Shown one piece after another: positions 32,486 to 58,099 of a stretch of DNA of 64,000 nt. The position numbers were made by a program, and so were the translations under genes. The notes under the pieces were generated by a model. It was not told the origin of the DNA. It did no database searches and was given only the letters and a program-made list of their open reading frames with translations. Source of the stretch: Enterococcus haemoperoxidus ATCC BAA-382 (GTDB lineage: Bacteria; Bacillota; Bacilli; Lactobacillales; Enterococcaceae). Each line of letters begins with the position of its first letter. The first letter of the stretch is position 1. The stretch covers positions 1,054,001 through 1,118,000 of the forward strand of contig NZ_KE136480.1 of NCBI RefSeq assembly GCF_000407165.1. Reading direction: 5' to 3'.

Positions 32486-32924
32486 TTGTTTTCCACCTTT
32501 TCAATAGCGTTCTATCTTAGTTTAACAAATGGAAGGATAAGTGCAAGTGGTTAGGTAGAATTAAAGAGACAGAAGAGGCAGTAGTCTATTTTTGAACTGG
32601 ATTGGTAGAAAGAAATAGCTTTTCTAAAGGGTATTTTTGTATTGTTTACTATTAAATCACGTTATTTTTTTGATTCACAAGTAAGAAGACTTCTCTCACT
32701 ATTTTTAGCTCATCATCTACTCTGGCAAAGCCAGTTGTAGTCCTTTAATTCTTAGAGCTGTAGCTCTTAGAAAATAAAGGGAGCAATGTATCTTTCTGAT
32801 ACCTTGTATTGTGCATCATCGAATCACTTCGTTCTTTGTGATTTACAACAATGAGATCGAAACGAAGTGTAGTGATTGAAAGCAAATACCCGTCCTTTGG
32901 GGAAGGACGGGAAAGGAGTTAAAA
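32486..32924. other. Intergenic region with a run of five hairpins
   Basis: No ORF with a ribosome site lies in 32486-32924. Between 32717 and 32911 five stems follow one another on the plus strand: CTAC-TCTGGC/GCCAG-TTGTAG (32717-32740), TCCTTTA...AGAGCT/AGCTCT...TAAAGGGA (32741-32782), GCAA-GTATC/GATAC-TTGT (32783-32814), CACTTCGTT/AACGAAGTG (about 32825-32868, with AATCAC/GTGATT outside), and CCCGTCCTT/AAGGACGGG (32889-32911). This looks like a structured leader RNA for the short ORF that follows. Confidence 0.5.
32889..32911 (+). promoter_or_regulatory. Hairpin before short ORF, copy 1
   Basis: A nine-pair stem CCCGTCCTT/AAGGACGGG with loop TGGGG, immediately followed by AAAGGAG. Copy 2 at 34182-34204 has the same loop and stem length with paired base changes. 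Confidence 0.8.
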
Positions 32925-33002
32925 ATGAAAAAGTGTTTTGTTAGGGTTGTTTGTTGGTATACATATATAATACAAACTAAATATGAATTTTTTGTGTATT
33001 AA
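32925..33002 (+). CDS. 25-residue short ORF, copy 1 of a duplicated hairpin-sORF element
   Basis: ATG at 32925 is six bases after AAAGGAG (32912-32918), a near-ideal ribosome site. The peptide begins MKKCFVRVVCWYTYII and ends YEFFVY before TAA. Its first 13 residues are identical to those of the copy at 34220. It has two cysteines, a basic start and an aromatic, hydrophobic body. The family is not recognised. The shared hairpin, ribosome site and start argue that it is translated. Confidence 0.6.
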   Translation: MKKCFVRVVCWYTYIIQTKYEFFVY

Positions 33003-33063
33003 TTTGTCTAAAAATGTAAATATTTTCTAAAGAAGGGTTTAAGATTTACACAAAAATTCCTAA

Positions 33064-34020
33064 CTAGTTATTATTCATTGTATTGATCAAACGTTTCGTC
33101 CAGTTAAAATCGGTTTTTGTGATTGTATCATCACCATATGTCTTACCATCCCGATCGATAGCATAGACAAACATCCCGCCTTTTTGACCATCTTTTGGAT
33201 TCCATTTTGCATAAGAATAAGCTCGGCTTGTTTCATATGGTTCTACCGTATCATTCCAACGGTTGTGATCTTGTTCTTCTGGGAAAGAGATGCCAGGAAG
33301 AAATTGTTGCGGCGTAATTGACGTTTTGTAGGTATTCCATGTATTATCTAAAGAACTAACTGAACGGCCATATGCTTGGACAAATAAATAATCAAAGTAA
33401 GAGGCTGTTTTTTTAAATAAAGAATGATTATCTTTATTTGTATCATAAATCAATAATTTTCCAGAATTGGAATTTGGACCTAGTTTTTTAGATAAAGCGT
33501 TGAACGTACCAACCGCCATTTCTTCTTGCTTCGCAGTCAAACTAGATTCCATATCAACATCCAGTCCATCTAAATTCCACGGAGTTAGATAAGTATCAAT
33601 CAGTTGTTGTGCATATTTATCATATTCAGCTGTCGTGGGCGTAGTACCTGCATGAGGAACATTCCAAATTTCTCTTATATCGATTGTCCGAATGACACGA
33701 GTCCCTCTAGCATGCAGTGTAGGGACGTAAGTATCTTTCAAGGTATCCCAAAATTTCTGTTGATTTGTTCCAGGATTGACATAATGGAAAACAGAGACAA
33801 TATCTACGCCTTCAGGAATATCTGTCATGGCAGTGACGTTTGGATCAGGCAAGGTGGAATTTGCATCGTGAGGCATTGTAACGTCTCGCCATGTACGATA
33901 ATAAGCCATCATGATCGGATCTTTTGAATTTGCTTGAGTAGCATCTGATTGATTAGGCAACAGACTAAAACTTAGTAAAAAGAAAATCGGAATAAGTAAA
34001 AATGTTAGTTTTTTAGACAT
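33064..34020 (-). CDS. Secreted endo-beta-N-acetylglucosaminidase, GH18 (EndoH-like)
   Basis: 318 residues with a Sec signal peptide (about residues 1-27). The GH18 catalytic motif DGLDVDMES gives Asp151, Asp154, Asp156 and the acid/base Glu158. The fold elements MMAYYRTWRD, VSVFHYVNP and FVQAYGRSV surround it. Size and sequence resemble the single-domain enterococcal enzyme that cuts N-glycans between the two core GlcNAc residues, releasing host high-mannose glycans for use as sugars. A cre-like site lies just upstream. The gene is flanked on both sides by the hairpin-sORF element and has no other neighbour. Confidence 0.9.
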   Translation of the reverse strand: MSKKLTFLLIPIFFLLSFSLLPNQSDATQANSKDPIMMAYYRTWRDVTMPHDANSTLPDPNVTAMTDIPEGVDIVSVFHYVNPGTNQQKFWDTLKDTYVPTLHARGTRVIRTIDIREIWNVPHAGTTPTTAEYDKYAQQLIDTYLTPWNLDGLDVDMESSLTAKQEEMAVGTFNALSKKLGPNSNSGKLLIYDTNKDNHSLFKKTASYFDYLFVQAYGRSVSSLDNTWNTYKTSITPQQFLPGISFPEEQDHNRWNDTVEPYETSRAYSYAKWNPKDGQKGGMFVYAIDRDGKTYGDDTITKTDFNWTKRLINTMNNN

Positions 34021-34044
34021 AAAAATTCTCCTCTTCTATTTTTT

Positions 34045-34058
34045 GTAAAACGGTTACA
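34045..34058. promoter_or_regulatory. Possible cre site (CcpA) upstream of the GH18 gene
   Basis: GTAAAACGGTTACA matches the catabolite-responsive consensus TGWAANCGNTNWCA at all but the first two positions. It sits 25 bases before the start codon. Catabolite repression would suit a glycan-releasing enzyme. Confidence 0.45.
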
Positions 34059-34181
34059 TTTCAAAAAAAGTGTAGCATAAAAAAAGGTATAATAACAGTT
34101 AGGGAAGCGCTAGTAAATCATCTAGGTAGAAGTTTCACATCTGTTAGTCAGAGCTGAAAATTTTCTCAAAACAAAAAGAGA

Positions 34182-34204
34182 CCCACTCTTTGGGGAAGAG
34201 TGGG
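34182..34204 (+). promoter_or_regulatory. Hairpin before short ORF, copy 2
   Basis: CCCACTCTT/AAGAGTGGG with loop TGGGG, followed by AAAAGGAG. Relative to copy 1 the stem differs at three positions in each arm, and every change is compensated so pairing is kept. Confidence 0.8.
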
Positions 34205-34219
34205 AAAAGGAGTTAAAAA

Positions 34220-34312
34220 ATGAAAAAGTGTTTTGTTAGGGTTGTTTGTTGGTATACTTGTATAATAAAGGGAAAATATGAATTTTTTATGATCAAAGTT
34301 CTGTTAAATTAG
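34220..34312 (+). CDS. 30-residue short ORF, copy 2 of the hairpin-sORF element
   Basis: ATG at 34220 follows AAAAGGAG. The peptide begins MKKCFVRVVCWYTCII, continues KGKYEFF and ends MIKVLLN. The first 13 residues match copy 1 exactly and the block KYEFF is also shared. Beyond that the two diverge, as expected when only the first part is constrained. Function unknown. Confidence 0.6.
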   Translation: MKKCFVRVVCWYTCIIKGKYEFFMIKVLLN

Positions 34313-34540
34313 CACTTTTTTTCAACGAAAAGAAGAATTTATACATAAAATGCTATTTTCCTCCGTCAATCCCCTGATTTCTTGATGTATTCTTAAACTT
34401 TTCTACATAAAAATAAAAGAAAAGCATGGTAAAATAGGCAAAACAAAATCTATGTGCATTATTCATGCTAAAGCCGTATGAATGAGAGCGGCAATCTATG
34501 GTAAAATGGCTTAGAAACTTTTATGCAAAGAGGGAGCACT

Positions 34541-56628: not shown

Positions 56629-57948
56629 TTATGGATTTTGGGAATTGTTTGAATTAGATGAATTTTGTTTAAGTGCTGATTGGTCGATGGTTAAATCAAC
56701 ATCCACACTTTGTTCTTTGCCATCACGATAGAATGTGATTTTCATTTTATCACCAACTTTTTTCTTGTAAAGAGTACTTTGTAAGTCAGTAACAGAGCTG
56801 ATATCTTTGCCATCGATTTTAGTGATGACATCATATCTTTCAAGACCTGCTTTATCCGCTGGAGTTGCTGTTTGAACTGAACGAACTAGTACGCCCACTT
56901 GGACAGTTTCAGGTAATTTCAAGATTTCTTTTCTTTGTTGTGTTGAGACATTCGTTAATTCTTCCATTGAAATTCCAAGCGCTGGACGAGTTACTTTACC
57001 CTCTTTTTCCAATTGGTTGATAATATTCACAACATCATTACTTGGAATCGCAAAGCCCATTCCTTCAACACTTACTTGGCTTTCAGATTGTACGATTTTA
57101 ACAGAATTGATTCCAATTACTTGACCTTCAATATTGACTAAAGGACCACCAGAATTCCCTGGGTTGATCGCTGCATCTGTTTGAATCGCATTGATATTGA
57201 TCGCTTGACCGTTATTTTCATTTTGGATATTTCTGTTTAATGAAGAAATGATCCCTTGTGTTACTGAGTTAGCATAAGCTGAACCTAATGGAGAACCGAT
57301 AGCTAATGCTGGTTCACCGATTTTTAATTTATCTGAGTTACCAAATTCGGCAATTGAATCAACTTTATCAGAAGAAATCTTTATTACAGCAAGGTCGGTA
57401 TAAGAATCGGTACCAACGAGTTCACCTTGAACTTTCGTGCCATCGTGTAAAACAACTTCTAAACCTTTTGCTTGGTCTACTACGTGATTATTGGTGACAA
57501 CATAAGCAGTTTTACCATCTTTTTTATAAATTACACCGCTACCTTCGCTGGCAGCTTGTAGATCACTGCCATCAGCTTTAGAATTATCAGATTCACTGCC
57601 GTCATTTCCACCAAAAATACTACCAAAACCCCCATCAGCTGTACTTTGACTAGGGCTTTGTAAGTTGATGACCGAAACAACAGAATCTTTCACTTTATCA
57701 ACGGCTTTAGTAACATCACTTGTCACGTCTAAATTAACGTTTGTTACTTTCGTATCACCTTTGTTGTCTTTTACTGAGTTTGTAGTTGTGGATGAATTAG
57801 ATGAGGATGGGGTTTGACCTGTGATAACATAAGCACCACCAAAAGCGAGTGCCCCTCCGAGTAAACCTCCAACTAAACCAATTCCAAATTTTTTGAATAG
57901 CCCATTTTGCTTTTTATCTGAATTAGGTGTAACATCTTTTTTTTGCAT
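56629..57948 (-). CDS. htrA: HtrA/DegP-type membrane-anchored serine protease
   Basis: 439 residues. One membrane anchor (about residues 22-44), a Ser/Thr-rich linker, the trypsin-like domain with His155 (NNHVVD), Asp185 (YTDLAVI) and Ser266 (NPGNSGGPL), and a single C-terminal PDZ domain (LVRSVQTATPADKAGLERYDVITKIDG). It degrades or refolds misfolded exported proteins. It is divergent from rlmH across 420 bases holding a DnaA-box cluster. GGAGG precedes the ATG. Confidence 0.94.
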   Translation of the reverse strand: MQKKDVTPNSDKKQNGLFKKFGIGLVGGLLGGALAFGGAYVITGQTPSSSNSSTTTNSVKDNKGDTKVTNVNLDVTSDVTKAVDKVKDSVVSVINLQSPSQSTADGGFGSIFGGNDGSESDNSKADGSDLQAASEGSGVIYKKDGKTAYVVTNNHVVDQAKGLEVVLHDGTKVQGELVGTDSYTDLAVIKISSDKVDSIAEFGNSDKLKIGEPALAIGSPLGSAYANSVTQGIISSLNRNIQNENNGQAININAIQTDAAINPGNSGGPLVNIEGQVIGINSVKIVQSESQVSVEGMGFAIPSNDVVNIINQLEKEGKVTRPALGISMEELTNVSTQQRKEILKLPETVQVGVLVRSVQTATPADKAGLERYDVITKIDGKDISSVTDLQSTLYKKKVGDKMKITFYRDGKEQSVDVDLTIDQSALKQNSSNSNNSQNP

Positions 57949-58099
57949 ACAAGCAACCTCCTATTTAATTATCATTATTTATTATATTTAGTATAGTCTT
58001 TCAAGACACCTTTAGTCTACCCAAGAGCTTTGAATTTTTTATGAACAAGTTGGGGAGAAAAACAGATATAAATAATGAAAAAATCATTTTAAGAAAAAC

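Follow-up and report, generated by a model that had tools for sequence, protein, structure and literature searches.

Related small RNAs and the locus under study

Small RNAs (sRNAs) with several siblings per genome are known from relatives of the enterococci. The csRNAs of Streptococcus belong to the CiaR regulon, number 2-6 siblings per species, and are reported to contain a stretch complementary to the Shine-Dalgarno sequence (anti-SD) and the start codon (anti-start) and a terminator, behind promoters with TTTAAG-N5-TTTAAG CiaR boxes (PMC4438229); htrA is reported to be under CiaR too (PMC12826053). LhrC of Listeria, a member of the LisR regulon, is described as multicopy and C/U-rich, as binding an mRNA start, and as being under envelope-stress two-component control (PMC4132741). 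Among enterococcal sRNAs, the Ref84-like pair sRNA_109/sRNA_093, the former from E. faecalis, was called conserved and of unknown function, and in the sRNA_112/sRNA_005 pair the first 50 nt were reported to be conserved (PMC7724050). Here we analyze two elements in a stretch of 64,000 nucleotides from Enterococcus haemoperoxidus ATCC BAA-382 (NZ_KE136480.1, positions 1,054,001 to 1,118,000; hereafter the window), which lie on either side of a gene for a GH18-type secreted protein. Both are predicted sRNA genes on the minus strand and belong to a divergent multicopy, Ref84-like branch of Enterococcaceae sRNAs, built like the csRNAs and LhrC.

Gene, strand and family assignment are well supported. 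The complete reading, in which the RNA of about 80 nt blocks translation starts under the regulator and against the targets proposed below, is in our judgment quite likely. A literature search, without supplements and most subscription papers, found no description of this multicopy family.

The elements as predicted sRNA genes on the minus strand

The two sites, which lie 1295 nt from each other, are 75% identical over 135 nt and make up the longest direct-repeat family found in the region searched. An initial annotation of this DNA had read them on the plus strand as a hairpin, a Shine-Dalgarno (SD) sequence and a short open reading frame (ORF), and its description of the letters holds: both hairpins are present with a TGGGG loop on the plus strand and stems that differ by matched changes, and SD-like AAGGAG precedes two ORFs with MKKCFVRVVCWYT and KYEFF in common. 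The T-run, however, sits on the minus-strand side of each hairpin, and the conserved DNA extends past the plus-strand ORF into a promoter pointing the opposite way. A terminator scan of positions 32700-34500 gave two sites, which are the two hairpins, both on the minus strand; shuffled sequences gave 0.9 sites on average (standard deviation 0.8). The elements had been taken on the wrong strand, and it is the minus strand that constitutes a small-RNA gene.

The minus-strand unit starts with AUACCAACAAACAACCCUAAC and contains UUUUUCAUUUUU(U)AACUCCUUU. Its 5' arm of nearly 50 nt has no G in either copy and no predicted structure. When both window copies and two relatives were folded, the terminator alone paired in all four sequences (z-scores -3.6 to -6.1).

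Covariation of the terminator stem was computed on a set (A3) of 17 chosen sequences, with the structure named by the analyst; 10 of the 27 rows of alignment A1, those with odd hairpins, were omitted, and one further row (L126) had been dropped before A1. In this set all nine stem pairs change on both sides, pairing holds in 93.4% of the cells, and covariation scores 0.727 versus at most 0.227 when slid. The view that an RNA structure is maintained by compensatory changes is thereby borne out. The number of further pair types did not exceed that of shuffles (182 of 500 reach the count). In 9 of the 17 sequences the innermost pair does not form. The terminator script was passed by 8 of the 11 excluded rows (10 from A1 plus one more).

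The apparent small gene on the plus strand has a simple origin: SD-ATG-AAA-AAG is the complement of the anti-start/anti-SD stretch UUUUUCAUUUUU(U)AACUCC. We followed its frame through 166 distinct copies among those listed in the scan of named genomes (4 of 170 were dropped as short, as containing N, or as duplicate), and no conserved plus-strand reading frame was found over these copies. The ORF comprises at most 6 amino acids in 94 of them, 37 have the MKKCFVRVV start, and the distance from one conserved block to the other is distributed over all three frames (82/57/27); the nucleotides stay fixed across copies while the peptide varies. The peptide is an artefact because the frame breaks in most copies, and with it fall the conserved N-terminus and the regulatory or toxic peptide gene that had been considered earlier. 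A translational switch on the plus strand is rejected as well, since T-run and promoter sit on the minus strand. A plus-strand gene for a leader peptide or a toxic or regulatory peptide behind a structured 5' untranslated region, as suggested by the near-ideal SD, the ATG and 13 N-terminal residues common to both window copies, is in the light of the broken frame, the T-run on the other side and the opposite promoter almost certainly wrong. An anti-SD sRNA viewed on the wrong strand mimics a perfect small gene.

Distribution within and beyond the Enterococcaceae

When 3 mismatches were allowed, a 31-nt pattern matched 23 of 60 genomes; the reversed pattern was absent from the matches listed. 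The scan of named genomes gave at least 119 stretches, and the loci examined from it belong to Enterococcus, Tetragenococcus and one 'Lactobacillales bacterium' assembly. A covariance model of the sRNA, R1, was applied with a threshold of E<=0.001 for family counts. It matched 104 of 105 Enterococcaceae genomes and 17 of 17 genera, with 1-17 copies each. The initial annotation had named many copies with covarying stems and a conserved N-terminus as what would support its reading; the copies and the covarying stems are there, the conserved N-terminus is not. The extremes of copy number are represented by G119 with 17 R1 matches and by the complete-looking G067 with none. The E. haemoperoxidus genome (G000) has six R1 copies, two of them divergent; in one divergent copy (L174, G000:C1:794462-794559) a small hairpin is flanked by two ACUCC stretches. 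Across a sample of the order, R1 was found in 88 of 395 genomes. Eighteen of these lie outside the Enterococcaceae, with E-values of 1e-4 to 1e-3 in 14 genomes, 2e-5 in one, and below 1e-6 in three.

At least 13 genomes of the same genus have a pair of copies 1.27-1.30 kb apart. The GH18 gene was present in 11 of 16 loci tested, some of them from the same species; the five without it represent other copies or stretches nearby. A small mobile unit, proposed earlier, gains no support from the recurring pair and the GH18 position. Interspersed repeats of the MITE or BOX type, maintained by transposition without a cellular role, would likewise be multicopy and clustered, with stems similar within a genome. 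Such elements are nevertheless a highly improbable explanation, given the presence in 104 of 105 genomes of one family, the conserved place around GH18, the compensatory stem changes between lineages, and the retention of promoter, arm and terminator while the flanks differ.

Relation to known sRNA families

At gathering cut-offs, Rfam reported no known RNA in the window; a near-universal Enterococcaceae sRNA family is here missed by these cut-offs. With relaxed cut-offs, Ref84 (RF02846, "Enterococcus sRNA 84") aligned to both copies on the minus strand over positions 1-87 of 87, scoring 33.3 bits for copy 2 (34174-34254) and 24.7 bits for copy 1 (32882-32959), against a cut-off of 52 bits that was reached by none of 17 loci (16 R1-type copies and one polA sibling, see below). 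Both copies share with Ref84 the UACCAACA...ACAACC 5' end, the UUUUUCAU and ACUCC elements and the terminator, whereas the internal hairpin before the terminator is absent from their folds. Because the alignment runs end to end but stays below the cut-off, we place the window copies on a divergent branch within a broader Ref84-like family. The L174 copy folds an internal hairpin and matches Ref84 with 35.5 bits, also below the cut-off, and may therefore be nearest to a Ref84 orthologue in this genome.

With the csRNAs, the window copies have in common the anti-SD and anti-start stretch, the terminator and hexamer-N5-hexamer repeats. The boxes are TTCACA-type at the same N5 spacing, in contrast to TTTAAG-N5-TTTAAG, and pneumococcal csRNAs have two stem-loops; the likeness noted here is one of design.

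The likeness to LhrC comprises several copies per genome with a C/U-rich, putatively SD-binding stretch, and the LhrC 5' stretch CUAACAACAAGCAAAACAUUUUCAUU resembles the window sRNA. The LhrC family model (RF00616) differs in having 111 positions and three UCCC sites. At E<=0.001 it had no match in any Enterococcaceae genome sampled, and on the L174 copy it scored 22.5 bits versus the Rfam cut-off of 110. R1 run on 12 LhrC loci (36 kb) gave 44 matches at E<=10 (best 19.7 bits, E=0.012), and 34 of the 35 plus-strand matches checked among these 44 lie at the LhrC 5' motif. On such sequence comparisons, a kinship of the window sRNA with LhrC is possible.

Ern0160 (Ref19C), an enterococcal sRNA of 362-370 nt reported from the queA-mgtA region (PMC12870237), was rejected as an identity due to its other place and length. 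The E. faecium-group copy of the family adjoins a brnQ-like transporter gene or its neighbours (names by ORF reading).

A shared promoter type

The promoter consensus is based on 163 distinct copies (of 170, six were lost for lack of an anchor, an N or proximity to an end, and one was a duplicate). In it the boxes are spaced by multiples of 11 nt, with a TTTACA-like one at -61 and TTCACA-like ones at -39 and -28; the position at -50 is weak, and TATTAT forms the -10 element at -13, where numbering begins at the T of UACC. A -35 box is absent. For comparison, the YclJ box reads TTCATA-N5-TTCATA; HssR-like repeats are a further comparison.

From 16 promoter sequences without the sRNA body we built a promoter-only model, R2, which was run on this genome and on 31 genomes. 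Over the 31 genomes it gave 124 matches in 25 genomes. We inspected 41 matches absent from the R1 matches listed; six further unlisted ones were left aside. By script, an anti-start/anti-SD stretch and a terminator were both present within 150 nt in 28 of the 41 (17/20 and 11/21 in two batches), compared with 6 of 1990 stretches drawn at random from this genome. By eye, 35 of the 41 are sRNA-like, namely all 20 of the first batch, where two lack CAU and two have AUCC in place of CUCC, and 15 of 21 in the second. The other six of the second batch are an htrA promoter (G015), the promoter of an ABC exporter (G042), a degenerate unit, and three that are neither. Ref84-like units in G043 and G037 and a similar unit in G039, all three genomes of other families, are among the R2 matches, and the inspected set also holds some plain R1-type genes. 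The shared promoter type links the sRNA copies with siblings of different body.

One such sibling gene lies next to a polA-like gene (L182, G000:C1:1665460-1665522). It has the same promoter type and another body, UUUCAUUUGUGUGAACUCCU, followed by CCCGCTCTGAGTGTGCAGAGCGGG and a T-rich tail; similar units occur in several genomes of the genus. An R2 match at C1:2169578 of G000 (L184) was rejected as an sRNA, being located inside a gene. An LhrC-like promoter was rejected too, with a single weak R2 match (E=0.3) in the 12 LhrC loci.

The 5' arm and its predicted targets

Besides the anti-start and anti-SD seed, UUUUUCAUUUUU(U)AACUCC, the 5' arm contains a CCCUAAC segment. AUG-AAA-AAA/G encodes Met-Lys-Lys, a common start of exported proteins. 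Pairing of the arm was predicted from simple duplex energies for 292 genes, which an ad hoc caller had identified in 400 kb of this genome and the window. It was stronger for the 67 genes with a signal-peptide or membrane start (area under the receiver operating characteristic curve, AUC, 0.617; p=0.0019), a class that holds 21 of the 25 proteins starting with Met-Lys-Lys, while 25 base-shuffled arms reached a mean AUC of 0.472 and a maximum of 0.499. A preference of the arm for the starts of exported proteins is suggestive only. A search of the whole genome for the best-complementary starts gave 13 sites, three of them the sRNA genes themselves; the reversed pattern gave 3.

Alternatively, the chief task of the same sRNA might be to capture a protein or ribosomal components as a decoy, and not to pair with particular mRNAs. 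A generic seed from which no single best target emerged and the many copies per genome, which would suit titration, point in this direction. The stronger predicted pairing at exported-protein starts argues against it, as does LhrC, of like design, which is reported to bind an mRNA start (PMC4132741), and we consider the decoy an unlikely main function. Under the reading as a start-site-blocking sRNA, the seed design, which addresses SD, AUG and two Lys codons together, suggests how a small number of RNAs might reach an entire class of exported proteins.

htrA and the candidate regulator

The expression for the box pair plus -10 occurs twice in the 64-kb window, at sRNA copy 2 (34293, minus) and upstream of htrA (58045, minus), the gene for a serine protease of cell-surface quality control. 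The related G015 protein has HtrA as its nearest NCBIfam model, below that model's cut-off. R2 is weak at the htrA promoter of this genome (9.4 bits, E=0.14). TTCATA-N5-TTCAAA is located upstream of htrA in 17 of 19 loci of the same genus, and R2 marks 17 of the 19 (E<=0.15), including both without the pair near the start. In other families, a similar pair was found in 3 of the 7 script-readable loci (of 11). From these sequences, htrA is predicted to be a co-member of the sRNA regulon.

A candidate regulator is suggested by G042, from the family carrying LhrC. Its boxed promoter lies between the ABC exporter and a divergent two-component system (L293:2132-6543), and the region separating the two holds three TCAYA-type boxes spaced 11 nt apart. 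This system is nearest to PieR (400 bits, cut-off 450) and PieS (839 bits, cut-off 850). The best relative of its regulator in E. haemoperoxidus (G000:C1:1194912) is 60% identical, and the corresponding pair is again nearest to PieR/PieS, with scores of 329 and 437 bits that fall far short of the cut-offs. Our best guess, with about even odds, is that this PieR-like system would be the regulator.

We rate the chance that the same sRNA responds to another regulator (CroR, LiaR, PhoP, or a LisR/CiaR orthologue) slightly below even. In E. faecalis, htrA is reported to belong to the CroRS regulon, and in Listeria both PieRS and LisRK are reported to affect htrA (PMC12826053); TTTACA/TTAACA repeats at 11 nt precede one pstS (by eye). 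On the other side, CiaR uses TTTAAG-N5-TTTAAG (PMC4438229), and the reported CroR motif, TTTATTAA, is unlike the sRNA boxes (PMC9426447). CroR was rejected as a direct regulator for this difference of motif, and PhoP because neither pstS locus gives an R2 match up to E=5. The hexamers upstream of pstS (L207, G000:C1:1232125) have, by eye, the look of a Pho box.

Proposed mechanism

Strand, architecture, stem covariation, multicopy conservation across the family, the common promoter type and the breakdown of the peptide frame come from the computations above; transcription, regulator, repression and targets are inferred. The following mechanism would account for the two elements. Each would be the gene for a trans-acting sRNA of about 80 nt. 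A response regulator of the OmpR family would bind the TTCACA-type direct repeats with their 11-nt period in place of a -35 box, and transcription would start at AUACC. The resulting sRNA, a G-free unstructured 5' arm and a terminator hairpin, would use its arm to base-pair with translation starts of the form AAGGAG...AUGAAAAA and keep ribosomes from binding there. Because Met-Lys-Lys is a common exported-protein start, the siblings would jointly curb the production of exported proteins, with HtrA raised by the same regulator. The family is probably an envelope-stress brake co-regulated with htrA.

The envelope-stress circuits CiaR/csRNA and LisR/LhrC likewise combine htrA with multicopy anti-SD sRNAs, and we propose the present system as their enterococcal counterpart, perhaps under a PieR-like regulator. 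In its widest form, a circuit in which one PieR-like regulator of the Enterococcaceae and some other families raises HtrA and fires sibling sRNAs, whose shared seed recognizes the SD-AUG-Lys-Lys start frequent among exported proteins, as a collective brake on secretion load is a tentative and somewhat doubtful proposal. The enterobacterial sigma-E scheme combines DegP with MicA/RybB. If true, the circuit would be the Gram-positive counterpart of that scheme and would explain the orphan Ref84. The main reading already offers Ref84 a promoter class and a likely function and links it with htrA in one putative envelope-stress circuit.

A number of results weigh against this mechanism. The rows used for covariation were selected, 10 of 27 having been excluded, and since a terminator stem would covary whatever the RNA does, the kept stem alone is silent on mechanism. 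The strict two-box expression fits only 109 of 163 copies, a sigma-70 scan of 32700-34500 flags neither of the proposed promoters, and several inspected R2 matches are plainly not sRNAs, with six matches uninspected. The target effect is modest and depends on this ad hoc gene calling and on simple energies of duplex formation; among the 13 best-complementary start sites there is no clear single target, and the genes behind them are mixed. As to htrA, R2 misses two loci of the genus that carry the pair, the boxes of the genus come from close relatives, and R2 is only weak at 2 of the 11 loci of other families. No R2 site was found at the PieR-like gene, and 14 regulator loci of G000 gave one weak site (E=0.068).

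Features of the window

The coordinates of all features are collected in Table 1. The GH18 gene between the two copies encodes a lone EndoS TIM-barrel, a single domain by Pfam.

Table 1. Features in the window, with positions counted from its first nucleotide.
Feature	Position	Strand	Remarks
sRNA gene copy 1	32880..32960	-	predicted 5' end A32960 (AUACCAACAAACAACCCUAAC...), inferred from the -10; R1 match G000:C2:1086879-1086957:-, E=1.4e-16 (copy 1 among the rows behind R1)
Terminator hairpin, copy 1	32889..32911	-	9 pairs, 5-nt loop; then TATTTGCTTT
Seed of copy 1	32915..32932	-	UUUUUCAUUUUUAACUCC; anti-start-codon and anti-SD
-10 box TATTAT, copy 1	32967..32972	-	
Boxes of copy 1	32982..33020	-	multiples of 11 nt: TTTACA (33020-33015), TACACA (32998-32993), TTCATA (32987-32982); R2 E=3.4e-8 (promoter among the R2 rows)
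25-aa ORF of the initial annotation	32925..33002	+	sRNA seed seen from the opposite strand; not regarded as a gene
GH18-type secreted protein	33064..34020	-	between both copies; neighbour, outside the sRNA
sRNA gene copy 2	34172..34255	-	predicted 5' end A34255; R1 match G000:C2:1088172-1088252:-, E=1.4e-15 (copy 2 among the rows behind R1)
Terminator hairpin, copy 2	34182..34204	-	9 pairs, 5-nt loop; then TCTCTTTTTG
Seed of copy 2	34209..34227	-	UUUUUCAUUUUUUAACUCC
-10 box TATTAT, copy 2	34262..34267	-	
Box pair of copy 2	34277..34293	-	ATCATA-N5-TTCATA; R2 E=1.1e-11 (among the R2 rows)
30-aa ORF of the initial annotation	34220..34312	+	sRNA seed seen from the opposite strand; not regarded as a gene
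htrA, serine protease	56665..57948	-	G000:C2:1110665-1111948; 75% identical to the G015 protein
htrA promoter	58014..58045	-	TTCATA-N5-TTCAAA, then TAGACT

Just past the sRNA terminators of many copies of the genus, a TTCATCATCTACTCTGGC..GCCAGTCGTAGTGATTCACAACAA-like stretch recurs, which in the window is found at 32700-32885 and is perhaps a repeat of the REP (repetitive extragenic palindromic) kind.

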